Part shown: piece by piece, positions 56,604-63,895 of the stretch
How positions within the stretch are numbered: the stretch's first letter is position 1
Layout: each line of letters starts with the position of its first letter
NCBI RefSeq assembly: GCF_001927245.1
Contig: NZ_MJUX01000001.1
Coordinates: forward strand, 558,001-622,000
Length of the DNA: 64,000 bases
DNA from: Acuticoccus yangtzensis
Lineage (GTDB): Bacteria; Pseudomonadota; Alphaproteobacteria; Rhizobiales; Amorphaceae
Direction: 5' to 3'
The notes under the pieces: model-generated
Database searches by the model: none
What the model was told of the DNA's origin: nothing
Seen by the model: the letters and a program-made list of their open reading frames with translations, nothing else
Program-made: the position numbers and the translations under genes

Positions 56604-56680
<77 letters not shown>

Positions 56681-57133
56681 TTTTCCTCACCCGTTTCAAT
56701 CTGATGATTTTCTTGCGAGGCCAGCTCATGTTGGCCTCCGCGCAATGCTGTGACGGTTGTCGCTGATGGGTGAGGAATCCGCCCGGAGCAGCTACCGGCT
56801 TCACGCGTCGGTGGTTTTGCAATCATTTCGCGCCGCGCGGGAAGCTTGAGGGCGCCTCAACCCTCAAGGCGACTGCTCGGGCCGCCGCTGACATTCCTGC
56901 ACCCTTTGCGATGATGAGCCTCGGTCCCGGCCGCCGCCTCGATGCCCAGCGCGCCCGCATCGCCGACAGCCTTAGATGCTTCCAATGCAGCGCAATTTAA
57001 GATAATATTGAGTGGCAGGTTCACGTTGAACCTGCATGTTTTAAGTCTTTTCGATACCCCGCGGCCCTGCCCGCATCACGATTATCGCGACACTGCCGCG
57101 TGGGACCGGCATTGGTCGGAACGGATTTCAACC
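56681..57133. other. Long gap between tRNA-Pro and the DyP/P450 operon; holds the operon promoter
   Basis: About 450 bases. 56690-56750 and 56985-57060 have visibly less G+C than the neighbourhood. GATAAT (57001-57006) could act as a -10 element, though no good -35 is seen. A perfect inverted repeat lies at 57015-57035, just downstream. The frame of the first operon gene is open across 56942-57133, so a longer product is possible, but ATG 57134 gives the natural start. Confidence 0.5.
57015..57035. promoter_or_regulatory. Inverted repeat GCAGGTTCA-CGT-TGAACCTGC, probable operator
   Basis: Nine-base arms are perfect reverse complements with a 3-base centre. It lies 99 bases before the first gene of the DyP/P450 operon and directly after a GATAAT box, the usual place for repressor binding by a TetR/GntR/MarR-type dimer. 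There is no regulator gene in the operon. A weak hairpin terminator is the alternative (few Ts follow). Confidence 0.55.
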
Positions 57134-58786
57134 ATGCGCCAGACGACCCTTTGCGTTCCGCTCGACGTTCGGCCCGAAAGCACGGAACGCCTCTCCGCGC
57201 TGATCGAGCTTTTGCGGCGCCGCGAAGATCGCCCGCACATCGGCGCCGCCGACAACTTCGCGCTTCTCAGCCGGGCCGTCCCCACGCTGCACTTCATGTC
57301 GCTCAGCGTCTTCGAGCATCAATCATTCGACCCGATCTTTATCATCGAGGCCAATTTCGACGGGCGACCGGGACCGTTCTGGGCCCAGCTGGAAGCGCAG
57401 ATGGGCGAGGATCTGCGCGAAATGCTGCGGTGCTGCAAAGAGCCCTTCGACCGAACCCGCAACCTCTACTGCGCGATCACCGCGGAGGGATCACGGGTGC
57501 CCGTCGCACCCTATCTCGAAGCGTCCACCCAGCGGCCGAGCGTTTTTCACCACGGCAACCGCGGCCTGACGCGCGACCGCATCATCGCCGAAGCCAAGCT
57601 GTTCAGGGCCCTGCGCGAGGAACTCGACAAGCCACAGAACCAGGGAGCGCAGCCCTACCGCGGCGCCGAACCGGAAGACGTTCGGGACCGTCTCTACCAA
57701 AAGATGCTGCCCGAGCACCCCTGGCTCGGCACGCCTGGCCCCCCGCGCGTGAGCGGGACCGAGCGCTTCTTGGACATCAGCCGACTGTTCTTGTTCGCCA
57801 CGATGGTCGTCGGAGCCCTCGCCATCCCCGGCATCCTCATGGCGGCGATCCTTCAGACACCCATCTACCTCGCCGGCGTGGCGCTCTTCGCCCTCGTCGG
57901 GATCTACCTCATCGCCCGAGACCGCGCCCCGCTGCCCGGAACGGAGGTGAAGACGACCTTCAGCCTCCTCGGCTACCTGTTGAAGCATGCGCCGCTGGTT
58001 CTGTCGGTGCTGCTGCTGCCGGCCGCCATCTTGACCGTGGTGCTGACGGCAGTCGCGCTCAGCCTCGTCGGCCTCTACGGCGCGATCACCGGGCTCACGG
58101 GCGAGATGGAGGCTTTCCTCTGGCCGGTCTCGCGTGCGGTCATCCTCGGCGTCCTCGGTATCGTGTCGACCACGCCGTACCTCGTGTGGTGGCTCCGCCG
58201 GCTCGAGATGCGCGACCACTCGCAGGACTCGCCGCACGTGGACGACGACATCGCCACGCAGATGGCGCGTTACGAGGACTGGGTCTCGCAAAACCATATG
58301 GGCTCGATCGTCCTGATCCGTCCGGGCGTTTTGCGCAGCATCATCATCCGCTACGGCCACATGGGCCTTGGCCTTCTTCTGAGGGTGACCGCGACGAACG
58401 GCTACCTCGGAAGCATGCGCACGGTGCATTTCGCGCATTGGGCTTTCCTGAACAACGGCAGCCGTCTGCTCTTCCTCTCCAACTTCGACCAGAGCTGGGG
58501 CTCCTATCTCGACGACTTCATCGAGAAAGCCCATGTCGGCCTGACGCTCGCCTGGGGCTGCGGGGTCGGTTTCCCGCCGACACGCTTCCTTATCTTCGAC
58601 GGCGCCAGCCATGGGCGGCGTTTCAAGGCGTGGGCCCTCGCCTCCCGCGCGGTGAGCCGCTTCTGGTACTCGGCTTATCCCGATCTTTCGGTCGATCAGA
58701 TCGAGCGCAATCACCGGCTCGCCGAAGGTCTGCGCAACGGCCCGCTGAACCGCGCCGACAGCCGCACCTGGATGAAGGATCTCTGA
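57134..58786 (+). CDS. Membrane protein with duplicated alpha/beta module, linked to DyP and P450 (unknown function)
   Basis: A 550-residue protein from ATG 57134 (MRQTTLCVPLDVRPEST). N-terminal soluble half (about 1-160) and C-terminal soluble half (about 400-550) appear to be copies of one module: LHFMSLSVFEH...FIIEANFDGRPGPFWAQLE near 52-90 and VHFAHWAFLNNGSRLLFLSNFDQSWGSYLDDF near 430-465 (in part) share the H-F, [EN]-x-NFD, then acidic-helix pattern. Between them are about five or six helices (about 215-260, 282-325, 327-350). Similar proteins of unknown role accompany DyP-type peroxidases in other bacteria, from memory. The peroxidase start is 3 bases after its stop, so it belongs to the same operon. 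Confidence 0.8.
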   Translation: MRQTTLCVPLDVRPESTERLSALIELLRRREDRPHIGAADNFALLSRAVPTLHFMSLSVFEHQSFDPIFIIEANFDGRPGPFWAQLEAQMGEDLREMLRCCKEPFDRTRNLYCAITAEGSRVPVAPYLEASTQRPSVFHHGNRGLTRDRIIAEAKLFRALREELDKPQNQGAQPYRGAEPEDVRDRLYQKMLPEHPWLGTPGPPRVSGTERFLDISRLFLFATMVVGALAIPGILMAAILQTPIYLAGVALFALVGIYLIARDRAPLPGTEVKTTFSLLGYLLKHAPLVLSVLLLPAAILTVVLTAVALSLVGLYGAITGLTGEMEAFLWPVSRAVILGVLGIVSTTPYLVWWLRRLEMRDHSQDSPHVDDDIATQMARYEDWVSQNHMGSIVLIRPGVLRSIIIRYGHMGLGLLLRVTATNGYLGSMRTVHFAHWAFLNNGSRLLFLSNFDQSWGSYLDDFIEKAHVGLTLAWGCGVGFPPTRFLIFDGASHGRRFKAWALASRAVSRFWYSAYPDLSVDQIERNHRLAEGLRNGPLNRADSRTWMKDL

Positions 58787-58789
58787 CCC

Positions 58790-60391
58790 GTGTCAGCCGC
58801 ACATCCGAGCTGGAAACTTGCCCCTGACGTCGCCGCGGCGACACAGGCGCTGGTGGCGACGGGGTTCGGTCGTCTGCCGACCGGGCGCGCCCTGTTCCTG
58901 CGCCTGCCGAGCGATTGCGGCGGCGCATGGCTGAAGGCGTTGCGGGGCGTGGTCCCCATCACCGTCGCCAGCGATCTCGCCGAGAAGGCCCTCCCCCAAG
59001 CCGCCGCGATCGCATTCACCTGGACCGGTCTTCAACGCATGGGCCTCGCCCCCAACGCGCTCGCCTCCTTCTCGGCCCCGTTTCGCGAAGGGATGCTGGA
59101 GGAGAACAGGCTGAGACGCCTCGGCGACCGGCGCGGCGACGTCTGGCTCGACACGGTCGTCGAAGGCGGCCCGCGCTGGAGCGGCAACACCCCGCCGCGT
59201 CAAGCCGAGAAGAACGTGCGCGCCTACAGCGTGGATCTGTCGGAAGGGAAGCCGGAAACCGGCACGGCGGTGACCGGCGGCGTCGTCCATGCGCTGCTCT
59301 TGATCTACTCGCGCAACGACGAGGAGGCCGATGCGACGTGTGCCGCCGCCGTGGCGGTGCTGGAAGAGCATCATGTCCGCGTGGTCCACACCCAGCCCCT
59401 CCTCCTCGACGTGGAGCAGAGGAGCGGGATCAGCCGCGAGCATTTCGGCTTTGCGGACGGGCTGTCCCAGCCCCAGCCCTACGACCGCAACGGCCACGTC
59501 TTGAAGGACGGCGCGCCCGCCACGGAGCCGCATCCGGTCCAGGGCGTTCCCCTCGGCGAATTTCTGATGGGCTATGAGAACGGCCACCAGGAGATCGCTC
59601 CGGCACCCGTCGTCCCCGGCGATGTTGCCGGCACGGAGGATCAACGCCCGATCAAGGCCGGCCTCCCACGGCACCCCGAGGCGCGCGGCTTCTTCGATTT
59701 CGGCCGCAATGGCAGCTACCTCGTGGTGCGGGAGCTGGCGCAGAACGTCGCCGCCTTCTGGCGCGCGATGGATACCGCCGCCGCCCTCATCCGCGAGAAC
59801 GAGCCGGAGGCGCGCGAGGTCACGTCAGACTGGGTCGCCGAGCGCGTCGTCGGCCGCGACCGCGAAGGGCATCTCATCCGCCCCGGCAACCGCCGTCAGC
59901 TCACCCGCGACGCGCGGCCGGACAACGATTATCTCTTCTTCGACGAGGATCGGCACGGGTTCGGCTGTCCGCTCGGAAGCCATGTGCGGCGTGCCCACCC
60001 GCGCGATTCTCTGGCCCCGACACAGAGCACCAAGGCCACGCTGCTGAAGGCCGCCAACAACCACCGGATTTTGCGGCGCGGACGCAAATACGGCCCCAAC
60101 TGCGCCGACCTGAGGGTCGATGATGGGGCCTCACGCGGCCTCCTCTTCATGTGCCTGAACACGGACATCGCGCGCCAGTTCGAGTTCATCCAGCAGACGT
60201 GGCTGCTGAACAGCGACTTCCACACCATGTTCGAGGAGACCGATCCGCTCATCGGGCCGGACGGCTGGATGACCATTCCGGAGGACCCGCTGCGCCGGCG
60301 CATCCATGTCGAGACGTTCGTGCAGTTTTCGGGCGGCGAATATTTCTTCTTGCCGAGCATCCCTGCCCTCAACTATCTCGGCCAATTGTGA
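58790..60391 (+). CDS. DyP-type haem peroxidase
   Basis: A 533-residue dye-decolourising peroxidase family protein starting at GTG 58790, three bases after the previous stop. The distal motif GxxDG is HFGFADGLSQPQPYD (about 220), with Asp as acid-base catalyst. The proximal haem ligand is probably the His in CPLGSHVRRAHPRDSL (about 402), and the distal Arg lies in LNTDIARQFEFIQQTW (about 450). The length and spacing fit the long (class V, former C/D) type. No signal or Tat peptide is seen, so it acts in the cytoplasm or with the membrane partner. It ends with a GTGA overlap to the P450 gene. Substrate unknown. Confidence 0.92.
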   Translation: MSAAHPSWKLAPDVAAATQALVATGFGRLPTGRALFLRLPSDCGGAWLKALRGVVPITVASDLAEKALPQAAAIAFTWTGLQRMGLAPNALASFSAPFREGMLEENRLRRLGDRRGDVWLDTVVEGGPRWSGNTPPRQAEKNVRAYSVDLSEGKPETGTAVTGGVVHALLLIYSRNDEEADATCAAAVAVLEEHHVRVVHTQPLLLDVEQRSGISREHFGFADGLSQPQPYDRNGHVLKDGAPATEPHPVQGVPLGEFLMGYENGHQEIAPAPVVPGDVAGTEDQRPIKAGLPRHPEARGFFDFGRNGSYLVVRELAQNVAAFWRAMDTAAALIRENEPEAREVTSDWVAERVVGRDREGHLIRPGNRRQLTRDARPDNDYLFFDEDRHGFGCPLGSHVRRAHPRDSLAPTQSTKATLLKAANNHRILRRGRKYGPNCADLRVDDGASRGLLFMCLNTDIARQFEFIQQTWLLNSDFHTMFEETDPLIGPDGWMTIPEDPLRRRIHVETFVQFSGGEYFFLPSIPALNYLGQL

Positions 60392-61629
60392 GCGCGCTGA
60401 ATTCTCCTCACGTCTTGCGTCCGGCGCGCGGCATGAAGGCGTGGCTGGCGGCCCGTCTCTTGGGCCAGGCCCCGCGCGCCATGGCCGTGCTGAGGCGCGT
60501 CCGACCTGTCCTCAAGGTCGGTTCGACCGTCATCGTCACCCGGTACGATGATGTGCTCGAGGTATTCCGCCGCGACGACGTGTTCGATACGCCGTACAAG
60601 GCGCAGATCGACGTCCTGACCGGCGGCGAGCCCTTCTTCCTTGGCATGCGGGCCGGCCCGGACTATGACGCGGGCGTCAAGGCGATGCGCACGGTCATGC
60701 ATGCCGGCGATCTGGCACGGCTGGGCGAGCGAGCGGAGACACTGGCGGCCACCGCCGTCGCCGCACACGAAGGCGGCTTGGACGTGGTCGACGATCTCGC
60801 CCGCCGCGTGACCTTCGAGCTTTATGCGGATTATCTCGGCATCCCGCGACCTCCGGAGGGACGCATCGAGGTGTGGGCGACCCGGCTCTTCGAGTTTCAA
60901 TTCGCCGGTTCCCCCGACGACCACGCGCTGCGGGCCGAGGTGGACGAGATCGCCCCCGCCTTTCGCGCCCACATCGACGGCGAGATCGCCCGTCGCAAGG
61001 CCGCCGGATTGAACGGTGCCGACGACGTGATGTCCCGCTGTCTCGCGCTGCAGGCCGCGGGCGAGACGCAGTTCACCGACGCCTTCATCCGCACGCACCT
61101 GCTTTGCATGATGGTCGGCGGGCCGCCGCAGCCGCCGATGGTGATCCCTCACGCCATGGAGCAGCTTCTGCGCAGACCGACCGCTCTGTCGGCCGCCGTC
61201 GCCGCCGCGCGCGCCGACGACGACGAACGGCTATGGAGGATCGTGCGCGAGGCGCTGCGGTTCGATCCGCTGGCACCGGCTCTGCCGCGCGTCGCCACCG
61301 CCGACCTCACCATTGCCTGCGGCACATCGCGGGAGACTCCCCTGGCGGCCGGCACGAAGGTCTTCGCCGCGTTCGCCTCCGCGATGCGTGATCCGCGCCG
61401 CCTCCCCTCTCCCGAGACGTTCGACCCCGACCGGCTCGATCACGAGTACATCCACTTCGGCCACGGCCTGCACGAATGCTTCGGGCGGATGATGAACGAA
61501 GCCACGTTGCACCGGATCCTGAAACCACTGTTGAAACAGCCTCGTCTGCGGCGCGCTTCCGGTCCTTCGGGCCGCCTCTCCAAGAACGGCGTCTTCGCCG
61601 ACCGCCTCACCGTGCGATACGGACCCTGA
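60388..61629 (+). CDS. Cytochrome P450 lacking the I-helix acid-alcohol pair
   Basis: A 413-residue P450 starting at GTG 60388 inside the peroxidase stop. The haem Cys is in YIHFGHGLHECFGRMMNE (about 355-372; F-G-x-G-x-H-x-C-x-G and the ERR-triad partner), and ExxR is in WRIVREALRFDP (about 288). At the I-helix, where oxygen-activating P450s have [AG]-G-x-[DE]-T, it reads MMVGGPPQPPMVI (about 248). Loss of this pair is typical of P450s that rearrange or use peroxides without redox partners. No ferredoxin or reductase gene is near. Co-expressed with the DyP peroxidase. Confidence 0.92.
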   Translation: MSALNSPHVLRPARGMKAWLAARLLGQAPRAMAVLRRVRPVLKVGSTVIVTRYDDVLEVFRRDDVFDTPYKAQIDVLTGGEPFFLGMRAGPDYDAGVKAMRTVMHAGDLARLGERAETLAATAVAAHEGGLDVVDDLARRVTFELYADYLGIPRPPEGRIEVWATRLFEFQFAGSPDDHALRAEVDEIAPAFRAHIDGEIARRKAAGLNGADDVMSRCLALQAAGETQFTDAFIRTHLLCMMVGGPPQPPMVIPHAMEQLLRRPTALSAAVAAARADDDERLWRIVREALRFDPLAPALPRVATADLTIACGTSRETPLAAGTKVFAAFASAMRDPRRLPSPETFDPDRLDHEYIHFGHGLHECFGRMMNEATLHRILKPLLKQPRLRRASGPSGRLSKNGVFADRLTVRYGP

Positions 61630-61802: not shown

Positions 61803-62381
61803 GTGCAACTCTTGTCGCTCGCGGCAGCAGGTGCGGTGGTTGGCCTCCTTGTGGGTCTTTCGGCAAGTGCCGTCGTCTCGTCTCTGATCGGTGCCGTACT
61901 GACACTCGCTGCTGCCGTCATCGGCGGAAAACTGGCGACCCCAGCAGATGAGAAGCAGCGTAATCTCTCCCTTCTGGCCTTTACTTTGTCGCTTCTACCG
62001 GGACTCGGAGGAGGGTTGATGCTGCGGACCCATGACATCTTGAGCCCCACGCTCGAGTCGTCCGTCGCACGTTGGACCGCGGCCGGCTACACCCCAGCCG
62101 AAGCGCGAACGATCGTGGCATTCGAGCGGGCCCGGATCGCGCCGGCCGGAGCAACAAAAAGCGACGCACCATCCACGGCCGCCACGCTCCTGTTCGACAT
62201 GCCGGGCGGGAGCCTGTGCGGCGTGCTGGACGCCGGCCTCTTTCCGGATGCCGAGACGCGGCTTCAGGAAATGGCCCGGTCGGAGCCGCCTTGGAGCCGG
62301 GTCAAGCCTCTCGCAGAAGACGCGTCCCACAATCCCGAGACCGTGGCTGAGACTGCGTGGCAAGTCTTATGCGCACCATGA
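61803..62381 (+). CDS. Membrane-anchored protein of unknown function
   Basis: A 192-residue protein starting at GTG 61803, 6 bases after GGGAGG. Three hydrophobic segments (about 2-22, 23-42 and 54-74) rich in Ala, Gly, Leu and Val are followed by a soluble region (about 75-192) that begins RTHDILSPTLESSVARWTAAG. GYTPAEARTIVAF and a Cys in GGSLCGVLD and WQVLCAP are visible. No family recognised. Its last 13 bases overlap the next reading frame, the serine protease, so they likely work together. Confidence 0.65.
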   Translation: MQLLSLAAAGAVVGLLVGLSASAVVSSLIGAVLTLAAAVIGGKLATPADEKQRNLSLLAFTLSLLPGLGGGLMLRTHDILSPTLESSVARWTAAGYTPAEARTIVAFERARIAPAGATKSDAPSTAATLLFDMPGGSLCGVLDAGLFPDAETRLQEMARSEPPWSRVKPLAEDASHNPETVAETAWQVLCAP

Positions 62382-63895
62382 ACCTCAACCCTATCTCGCG
62401 GACGGCCCAGCGGCGCTTGGGTCGGATGATCGTCATCCTTGCCGCCTGGCTCAGCGTCGGGCCGGTCGACGCCGCGCCGTCTGCGGATGTCGTGAATGCC
62501 GCGAAGCGTTCTGTCGGGCGCATCGAAGCGTCTGGATGCAGCGGCGATACACCAGCGCGCATCGGGACCGGGTTCGTCTGGCTCGACGGCAAAACGGTCC
62601 TGACGGCTCGCCACGTCGTTGCAGGATGCAATCGCATCAAGGTCAGGTTCGAGGCGCTGAATCGCTCCTTTGACGCACAGCCCCTGCGCCAACTTGCCGA
62701 GCAAGACCTCATCTCACTCCAGCTGCCAGTGCAAACGGGCCTTCCACCCCTTCCGGTGCAGGAAAGCGTCCCCTCGACCGACGATATTCTCGCTGCCATC
62801 GGCTATGCACTCGGCGCCCCCACGCTCGACGACAAGCATCTTCGTGTGACCAGCGCCAATGACCGGGACGGGGCACGCCTGCGCGATCTCTTGAACGACT
62901 CCGCCCGGAGGGAGCTGGCTCGCTCCGGCGAGCTCGATCCCGACACCCGCATCATCCGCCTCGACGGGAACCTTCTTCCGGGACACTCGGGCGGTCCGCT
63001 GATCGACAGTCGCGGGTCTGTGCGAGCGATCGGCTCCGGCGGTCTTCGGTCCGGTGCGGGCGGTGTTGTCTGGGCTGTCCTGGCTCGCTACGCGAAAGAT
63101 CTCGCCACCGCACCCATCGTTACGCATCCCCTCGCCCACCAAGCGACATCACTTGCCTTCGCCTACCAGACCGAGTTGCCGGACAGCCGCAACGCGCGGG
63201 TCGAATGCGGAGACGCAGTGCTCACGCCCGCCGGCCGCTTCACCCTGGCCGATGGCGGCTTGCTGACCGACGATGTGGCGGGCCTGCAGCAAATATTGAT
63301 GATGTGGCAAATCGGGCCGGACGAACTCGGGACCTACGCCTTCCAACGCTACGTCGATCAGGAGAGTGGCGCCTCCGTTGCCATCCCGGTCCGTGCGGGC
63401 GCGCTGCGCTCAAGCGGCGACACTTGCGTTGCGGACGGCATGGACCCGCTCACCTTCGTGATCCAGGGACGGCAATTGGATCAGGCCGCGTCGTTCCAGA
63501 GGACGCTCGATGTTCAGCAGAAGTCGGCCGAGTTCGAGGGCGCCATCAATTCACGCTTGCCGAACCGGCCCTTCATGATCGACCCGTCACTAACCTACGG
63601 AGCGCCACAAAATCGATGGGACGGGTTCGTCGTGCGGAGGAAGGGTTACGCCAACCAACGGCCGACCTTCAGTGGTGATCCGGAAGCGGACGTCGTCTTC
63701 CTCACGCACATGGCGCGGGGTGATCAGTATTTTGGCGTGGCGGCGATCATGCTGGATCTCGAGGTCCCGTACGCAGCCGCGCAGTCTTGCCACTTCGCGC
63801 CGCTGAGTGCGCAATGCCGTTCGGTCAAGGACCGCATGGCGCCGCGGCTGTCCTCCATCGTCGCGGTTCATCTCGCCACGTATCCGCCGCTTTGA
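62369..63895 (+). CDS. Secreted trypsin-like serine protease (S1 fold) with C-terminal domain of unknown function
   Basis: A 508-residue protein. ATG 62369 (MRTMNLNPISRTAQRR) precedes a signal peptide (about 20-37, IVILAAWLSVGPVDA). The protease domain has the triad His in VLTARHVVAGCNR (about 90), Asp in AEQDLISLQLP (about 112) and Ser in LLPGHSGGPLIDS (about 210; the usual G[ND]SGGP is G-H-S-G-G-P). About 250 C-terminal residues with six Cys follow and match nothing I know. Its start overlaps the gene for the small membrane protein. Effector-like or envelope quality-control role possible. Confidence 0.8.
   Translation: MRTMNLNPISRTAQRRLGRMIVILAAWLSVGPVDAAPSADVVNAAKRSVGRIEASGCSGDTPARIGTGFVWLDGKTVLTARHVVAGCNRIKVRFEALNRSFDAQPLRQLAEQDLISLQLPVQTGLPPLPVQESVPSTDDILAAIGYALGAPTLDDKHLRVTSANDRDGARLRDLLNDSARRELARSGELDPDTRIIRLDGNLLPGHSGGPLIDSRGSVRAIGSGGLRSGAGGVVWAVLARYAKDLATAPIVTHPLAHQATSLAFAYQTELPDSRNARVECGDAVLTPAGRFTLADGGLLTDDVAGLQQILMMWQIGPDELGTYAFQRYVDQESGASVAIPVRAGALRSSGDTCVADGMDPLTFVIQGRQLDQAASFQRTLDVQQKSAEFEGAINSRLPNRPFMIDPSLTYGAPQNRWDGFVVRRKGYANQRPTFSGDPEADVVFLTHMARGDQYFGVAAIMLDLEVPYAAAQSCHFAPLSAQCRSVKDRMAPRLSSIVAVHLATYPPL

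Follow-up and report, generated by a model that had tools for sequence, protein, structure and literature searches.

A two-haem membrane enzyme unit of Alphaproteobacteria that may parallel fungal peroxidase–P450 lipid synthases

The operon and its conservation

In Acuticoccus yangtzensis, genes for a membrane protein, a dye-decolorizing peroxidase (DyP) and a cytochrome P450 stand side by side, which raises the question of what reaction two haem enzymes and a membrane protein might carry out together. We analyzed a 64,000-nucleotide stretch of contig NZ_MJUX01000001.1 (the window), and all features given here lie on its forward (+) strand. The membrane protein, called M here (550 aa), occupies 57134..58786. 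Its reading frame is open from 56942, and a Skermanella homologue favors the ATG at 57134; the start at 57015 given by a sequence-only reading of this DNA was wrong, being out of frame with the M ORF. The DyP-type peroxidase (533 aa, 58790..60391) and the P450 (413 aa, 60388..61629) both begin with GTG. Inspection of the ORFs revealed a 3-base gap between the M stop at 58786 and the DyP start at 58790, and a GTGA at 60388-60391 in which the DyP stop overlaps the P450 start, so the coupling of the three genes is borne out. A tRNA-Pro lies upstream of M (56604-56680). The genomic island at which it hinted was rejected, as a second copy of the tRNA 3' end is absent from the window. Trypsin-like proteases are encoded in the vicinity of the operon; a conflict-system reading drawn from them was also set aside, the word "peroxidase" having no use in the two listed papers on such systems.

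The C-terminal module of M was used to scan a database, and partner counts cover 80 of the 281 module loci. The DyP adjoins or is fused to M in 78 of the 80, a P450 accompanies both in 68 (three of these P450s being weak), and 41 loci encode a single P450-M-DyP polypeptide. The P450 thus comes first in most fusions, while the DyP is first in L139. In the L141 fusion, the C-terminal 460 aa look P450-like by eye around a Cys, but they reached a weak 3.2 bits against the profile (E 0.0018; one sequence, unfiltered) and matched none of the solved P450 structures, so they are not taken for a P450. Nine of the 80 loci have M-DyP with neither a P450 nor a catalase-like gene in the stretch covered, although in one of them (L064) that stretch ends soon after the DyP. 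Of 240 evenly sampled alphaproteobacterial genomes, six carry the module, the window included; all five of the other modules lie with a DyP and four also with a P450. By comparison, a DyP or M was found within about 1.5 kb in none of 26 other P450 loci. Co-occurrence of the three families across genomes, the absence of which would have refuted the sequence-only reading, is therefore very strong, and M, DyP and P450 are one conserved unit, beyond chance.

In database records these proteins carry no more specific name than "cytochrome P450", "Dyp-type peroxidase domain-containing protein" or "hypothetical protein". No description of a P450-DyP fusion or operon was found in the open literature, as judged by titles and abstract openings, a scope that leaves most subscription papers outside. 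The findings point to a two-haem membrane enzyme system that is widespread in Alphaproteobacteria, many rhizobia included, and has gone unnoticed.

The membrane protein and the peroxidase

The AlphaFold model of M has two ABM-like modules around transmembrane helices. The N-terminal module (aa 1-98, 57134..57427) is followed by a transmembrane region with four hydrophobic helices (aa 208-360, 57755..58213) and the C-terminal module (aa 366-550, 58229..58783). The two module profiles align with each other (hhalign probability 59.7, E 8.9e-5), and the order beta-alpha-beta-beta-alpha occurs in both, supporting the duplicated module that had been proposed from the sequence. H53 and D76 of the N-terminal module are invariant in 46 aligned sequences; the M alignment (A4) leaves out one of 26 listed M proteins and takes in 20 middle segments cut by hand from fusions. 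Window M had no Pfam match, and across the 46 members no Pfam family appeared in more than one at E 0.05. Foldseek matched M to ABM-type proteins with probability up to 0.99, but with E of at least 0.09 and none at 0.001. M had earlier been imagined to supply or hold a lipid; what the model suggests instead is a weak resemblance to ABM-type modules rather than to a known lipid carrier.

DyPs are marked by GxxDG, a distal Arg and a proximal His. The window protein carries GFADG (D223, 59456..59458), GSHVRR (R400, R401) and HRILRRG (H425, 60062..60064), and we take D223 to be the distal Asp and H425 the proximal His. In an alignment of 89 DyPs, all adjoining or fused with M except the second DyP of L035, D223 is kept in 88, R400 and R401 in 89 each, and H425 in 86; D223 and H425 belong to the GFADG and proximal-His motifs noticed earlier. 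The window DyP matches PDB 8re3 (E 1.9e-32) and TIGR01413 (E 5.5e-25), the latter at 88.3 bits, below the cut-off of 100.5, which the Pararhizobium fusion exceeds with 106.6 bits. By its sequence, the protein belongs to the dye-decolorizing peroxidase superfamily. DyPs consume H2O2. To our knowledge, they have no settled natural substrate, and we know of no DyP that makes lipid hydroperoxides.

The P450 and its I-helix

The third protein is a cytochrome P450 by its Pfam score (PF00067, E 1.7e-12), its ExxR and haem Cys, and the P450 fold of its AlphaFold model (pLDDT 95.7). In 80 aligned P450 rows, E288 is conserved in 78, R291 in 79 and the haem-ligand C364 (61477..61479) in 79. The I-helix carries GGPPQPP, and the alignment places P247-Q248 (61126..61131) where the acid-alcohol pair would be expected. 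As the sequence-only reading had claimed, the pair is replaced. A search for it elsewhere along the I-helix, where its presence would have refuted that reading, found none: Asp, Glu and Thr are all absent from residues 238-257, and the helix in the model is broken at 245-248.

Of 74 readable DyP-linked P450s (near-copies counted), 66 have Pro in place of the acid, as Pro-Gln in 17 and Pro-Thr in 49. The idea that Pro substitutes for the alcohol was discarded, since Pro aligns with the acid instead and 49 of the 74 still have the Thr. Asp-Thr is retained in five of the 74 and also in L138, and Glu-Thr is kept in all five rows of P450s linked to cyclooxygenase (COX) or RoxA homologues, two of these rows being one protein. 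The pair has not been lost throughout the system P450s.

In a tree, 57 of 60 system and cousin P450s separate from 13 other P450s (SH-aLRT 86); the divergent system P450s of L087, L096 and L112 fall outside the main group. A P450 alignment (A5) leaves out 22 of 64 usable P450s. Nineteen named rows, comprising near-copies, the partial L071 and L089, and the COX-linked L048, were excluded from the tree, as was L050, the same protein as L039; the 13 outgroup rows come from 15 loci, of which L006 and L011 gave none. A search for relatives in phages gave no match. When genome contigs were scanned with just the window P450, no relative turned up; a scan with the module alignment then succeeded.

These features bear on whether the operon is an ordinary tailoring pair, with the P450 an O2/ferredoxin monooxygenase and the DyP a second oxidative enzyme that helps to make or degrade a small molecule. 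The nearest structures to the window P450 in Foldseek are ordinary bacterial P450s, Asp-Thr persists in some system P450s, and some P450s without the I-helix Thr still use O2. However, the acid has become Pro in most DyP-linked P450s, and neither ferredoxin nor reductase is among the families found in at least 3 of 118 and of 108 neighbor ORFs (rarer families being partly covered). The first of these sets holds 118 of 131 listed ORFs; the second holds 108 from 125 listed at 18 loci, some swapped for annotated frames in the same places. We consider this explanation quite unlikely.

Slightly better placed, but still unlikely, is an H2O2-driven pair, in which the P450 would be a peroxygenase, CYP152-like in use, hydroxylating a hydrophobic substrate brought from the membrane by M, while the DyP uses excess H2O2 or performs a second peroxidation. 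Use of H2O2 by DyPs would suit it. CYP152 enzymes have likewise replaced the acid-alcohol pair, with Arg-Pro according to the available part of PMC5818669, whereas system P450s have Pro-Gln or Pro-Thr; by that mark the window P450, with Pro247-Gln248, was rejected as a CYP152 member, and its lack of the carboxylate-binding Arg of CYP152 speaks against the H2O2-driven pair. Nor does it belong to the CYP74 clan, for which the accessible text of PMC8124189 gives an I-helix groove Asn and a nine-residue insertion in the haem-binding domain: the window P450 has GGPPQPP, and FGHGLHECFG without an insertion.

Partner swaps and comparison with known systems

Cousins of the window P450 have other partners. 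In Sinorhizobium medicae and Rhizobium etli they stand beside a cyclooxygenase homologue with YRWH (PF03098, E 1.5e-44 and 9.3e-44; COX-2, E 4.6e-53), which a profile also placed beside a cousin in R. gallicum. Such An_peroxidase proteins were seen only beside the cousins, not beside the window P450. A RoxA-like protein adjoins a cousin P450 in Bradyrhizobium (PF21419, E 1.7e-19) and in genome G052, the latter by a profile built from one sequence (L050). The RoxA family includes the Pseudomonas 10S-dioxygenase PA2077, according to the part of PMC4496055 available. The H2O2-driven explanation leaves these pairings unexplained. Conversely, M-DyP lies with a catalase-like protein at four loci (L035, L036, L047 and L126). 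A profile from three of the four had as its first match the coral allene oxide synthase 1u5u, a weak one (E 0.0035). The profile by which catalase-like proteins were recognized was built from L036 and L047, and these two match it by construction. Single-sequence and Pfam searches with the protein gave nothing at 0.01. Neither a lipoxygenase nor an An_peroxidase turned up in searches of the window's genome; the controls of both searches were silent too, so this absence says little.

The unit, its fusions, the I-helix substitution and the partner swaps are established in this analysis, and the swaps would fit a two-step, Ppo-like hydroperoxide pathway. We propose that M anchors the unit in the membrane, M, DyP and P450 forming one membrane-anchored haem-enzyme unit. 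In most members the count of transmembrane helices in M is even, which would place the two modules on the same membrane side, together with the two haem domains where these are fused to M. M and the DyP would perform a first oxidation, giving an organic hydroperoxide, most likely from a fatty acid or other membrane lipid. The P450, its I-helix acid replaced by Pro, would take the hydroperoxide directly and rearrange or split it without a reductase, and the unit would therefore work like the Ppo and linoleate diol synthase fusions. The lipid substrate and the reductase-free chemistry are what we infer, and we judge the proposal as a whole to be evenly balanced between right and wrong. The analogy with Ppo, first drawn from the sequence, gains from the pairing of cousin P450s with COX and RoxA homologues and loses from the Asp-Thr kept in a minority of system P450s. 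No lipid-metabolism neighbor recurred among the 118 and 108 neighbor ORFs, which speaks against the proposal, as do the nine M-DyP loci without a second enzyme, the three P450s outside the main group in the tree and the Foldseek placement near ordinary bacterial P450s.

The same partners might instead serve to detoxify membrane peroxides, M-DyP with a P450 or catalase-like protein removing stress-formed lipid hydroperoxides rather than making a signal. The P450 and the catalase-like protein alike recall folds whose substrates are fatty-acid hydroperoxides, and the cyclase-TPR and Crp regulators that adjoin fused forms suggest conditional expression. Such a role seems improbable, as a dedicated reaction is suggested both by the sparse distribution (6 of the 240 genomes) and by the stable joining of two haem enzymes in one protein.

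Returning to the two-step pathway, a bolder form of it can be put forward tentatively: M-DyP might be a lipid dioxygenase of the membrane of a class not seen before, the DyP haem activating the neighboring barrel protein. Together with the P450 or the catalase-like protein it would make a bacterial oxylipin synthase of a fold unrelated to cyclooxygenase or lipoxygenase, and the pairing of dioxygenase and isomerase would have been invented independently once again. If the unit does make oxylipins, peroxidase-P450 lipid synthases would have more than one origin, and plant-associated bacteria would have a possible source of lipid signals. Physical fusion of a DyP to a P450 whose oxygen-activation site is altered also offers a direct route to a natural DyP substrate.

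Among known systems, the 10S-DOX and catalase-related hydroperoxide lyase of Nostoc (PMC13049297, in the part available) recall the loci with M-DyP and a catalase-like gene, although the first oxygenase of Nostoc is COX-like, not a DyP. The 10S-DOX and 7,10-diol synthase of Pseudomonas aeruginosa form a two-gene bacterial oxylipin pathway, and the 10S-DOX is RoxA-related, like the P450 partner in Bradyrhizobium and G052; both enzymes are of the di-haem cytochrome c type, with no P450 or DyP, in the available text of PMC4496055. Similar in architecture are the fungal DOX-CYP fusions (Ppo, linoleate diol and allene oxide synthases), in which a haem peroxidase-type domain is likewise fused to a P450. 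The accessible portion of PMC13049297 has these P450s acting without a reductase and gives (V/A)PxT in the I-helix region (SRS4) of the 9S-AOS, a likeness to the window Pro at the level of the motif. Unlike in the fungi, the first enzyme here is a DyP, from an unrelated family, with a membrane protein, and the P450 leads most bacterial fusions. Membership in the Ppo family itself was rejected, as this needs a COX-like (An_peroxidase) domain with YRWH first, and the window partner is a DyP. By analogy, then, the unit looks like a bacterial counterpart, so far overlooked, to the fungal enzymes that turn fatty-acid peroxides into lipid hormones.

A conserved three-gene unit

The operon is made up of genes for a two-module membrane protein (M; 57134–58786), a DyP peroxidase (58790–60391) and a P450 (60388–61629), all on the forward strand. 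The sequence-only reading described three open reading frames with a 3-base gap and a GTGA overlap, all of which was borne out when the window was re-read; its start for the first gene, 57015, is better replaced by the ATG at 57134, judging from Skermanella. The P450 matched PF00067 (E 1.7e-12), the DyP stayed below the family cut-off in both Pfam (PF20628, E 0.0028) and NCBIfam (TIGR01413, E 5.5e-25), and a Pfam search with the window's M returned no family (best E 0.18). M and the P450 both have matches on plasmids from two Skermanella species, S. mucosa and S. rosea; closer reading of the former showed overlapping genes in the window's order of M, DyP, P450.

The M–DyP–P450 unit is real. 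Using the C-terminal module of M to scan one genome per species, we found at least 281 relatives, a lower bound because one peptide pattern was used, and kept the best 80 for partner counts. These counts are not independent, because loci were chosen by M similarity and include near-copies (many from Mesorhizobium), but DyP adjoined or was fused to M at 78 of the 80, with the other two stretches ending near M, and a P450 was present at 68, three of them (L087, L096, L112) weakly P450-like. Among the same 80 loci, 41 encode a single P450–M–DyP polypeptide, 13 keep the window's order, nine have a P450 and then a fused M–DyP, one has a catalase-like gene, M and DyP, and nine have M–DyP without a P450 in the stretch examined. 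A fairer test drew 240 genomes evenly from the Alphaproteobacteria, including the window's own. Five others carried the module; DyP accompanied it in all five, fused or adjoining (with a gap of about 1.1 kb in L140), and a P450 in four, on the opposite strand in L137 and fused to DyP in L139. The family P450s that scored high in the draw all share a contig with the module: four above 390 bits, one of them the window's, and the fused P450 at 155 bits. Neither M nor DyP lay within about 1.5 kb of other P450s at 26 control loci. Co-occurrence of the three families, which the earlier reading had put forward as a check, thus holds in both samples.

Several variants were also seen. In L139:713-3757 the DyP–P450 fusion runs in reverse, DyP first, and in L141:8905-12531 an M–DyP fusion carries a further 460-residue C-terminal part that is faintly P450-like around a Cys. 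The copy at L046:7164-10228, on a Rhizobium ruizarguesonis plasmid, looks broken because its DyP part is spread over two reading frames.

DyP and M were absent from the seven other genomes of the genus, where the best P450 match had 27% identity (E 1.1e-16); the operon is therefore patchy in the genus and was probably acquired. It comes after a tRNA-Pro (ggg; 56604–56680), and no second copy of the tRNA 3' end was found within the window. Downstream lies a trypsin-like protease gene (62357–63895; PF13365, E 3e-17), and in Mesorhizobium L097 one protein combining trypsin-like and non-specific endonuclease parts lies near the fused unit. Split operons had no recurrent neighbor, with no Pfam family in more than three of 118 neighbor ORFs. 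An adenylate/guanylate cyclase domain occurs in 11 of the 108 neighbor ORFs taken from 18 fused loci, and a Crp-type regulator is encoded by nine; in Pararhizobium a cyclase-TPR gene is directly upstream of the fused unit and a Crp gene downstream. The families present in at least three members of either neighbor set did not include a ferredoxin.

The membrane protein and the P450 oxygen-activation site

The earlier description of M as a duplicated-module protein is supported. In its AlphaFold model (pLDDT 90.9, pTM 0.88, 46 sequences), two beta-alpha-beta-beta-alpha modules flank transmembrane helices, and the profiles of the N- and C-modules match each other (E 8.9e-5). Plausible Foldseek matches were ABM-type proteins, including a cofactor-independent oxygenase (probability up to 0.99, E at least 0.09); no match reached E 0.001, and the first rows were long, low-probability matches. 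A simple hydropathy count gave two or four helices in 37 of 46 M proteins, a number that would place both modules, and in fusions also the P450 and DyP, on the same side of the membrane. All 46 share H53 and D76 without exception.

Loss of the acid–alcohol pair from the P450 I-helix, where the window's protein has Pro247-Gln248 instead, was confirmed for most of the system, but not for all of it. The pair was readable in 74 of 75 DyP-linked rows, and the acid position is Pro in 66 (Pro-Gln in 17, Pro-Thr in 49, mainly fused P450s); Asp-Thr is retained in five, and three have neither pair. Replacement of the acid by Pro is thus usual in the system but has exceptions. Of the four further P450s from the even draw, three could be read clearly at the pair: L137 has Pro-Gln, L140 Pro-Thr and L138 Asp-Thr; the fourth is L139. 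All five COX- or RoxA-linked rows, two of them one protein, have Glu-Thr, as does the P450 of genome G052 (GSIETTS). Across 80 aligned P450s, the heme Cys and the ExxR Arg are each kept in 79 and the ExxR Glu in 78, and the model of the window P450 breaks the I-helix exactly at GPPQ.

In a quick tree of 73 rows, 57 of the 60 P450s that belong to the system or are cousins of its P450s lie apart from 13 others (SH-aLRT 86), a separation partly due to choice, as the outgroup was drawn from weaker matches; three very divergent system P450s fell outside. Canonical-pair P450s (COX-, RoxA- and five DyP-linked) cluster together (97), and the window's clade is distinct (99). Pfam finds two further P450s in the window's genome.

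Exchange of partner enzymes

The unit is conserved and often fused, its DyP catalytic residues are conserved, and its oxygen-activation site is altered. We propose that M–DyP would make an organic hydroperoxide at the membrane, that the P450 would isomerize it without a reductase, and that the substrate may be a lipid. The chances that this whole proposal is right seem to us about even; the stronger claim, that M–DyP is a new dioxygenase class, is one we would sooner doubt than accept.

The P450 family has three kinds of first-enzyme partner: M–DyP, a cyclooxygenase (COX) homologue and a RoxA-like di-heme protein. The COX homologue lies beside a cousin P450 on plasmids of Sinorhizobium medicae (L042:7899-10816) and Rhizobium etli (L049:6893-9795), and in R. 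gallicum was found by profile only. Both of the former translations keep YRWH, a motif tied to the tyrosyl radical (PMC4496055), with catalytic Tyr385 and proximal His388 named in PMC13049297; by sequence, the P450 and COX homologue on each of these two species' plasmids form a bacterial Ppo-like pair. The RoxA-like protein is found beside the P450 in Bradyrhizobium and G052 (L050:3853-7212, L039, L158), and its family includes rubber oxygenase and the fatty acid 10S-dioxygenase PA2077 (PMC4496055). One control locus of the 26, L006, also has a RoxA-like neighbor.

M–DyP in turn has two kinds of second-enzyme partner, the P450 or a catalase-like protein. The latter is in line in L047, L126 and, with a weaker score, L035, and on the opposite strand in L036; the first solved relative of its profile is coral allene oxide synthase, a weak match (E 0.0035). 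On a Rhodococcus koreensis plasmid (L047:5818-9100), a single module, DyP and catalase-like gene in a row form an actinobacterial version. This interchange of partners is, by analogy, the best support for a hydroperoxide intermediate, because it matches known oxylipin pathways. There, according to PMC13049297, the lipid hydroperoxide formed by a LOX- or COX-like enzyme serves as substrate for either a P450 or a catalase-related second enzyme, and, as in the M–DyP/P450 system, these second enzymes interchange.
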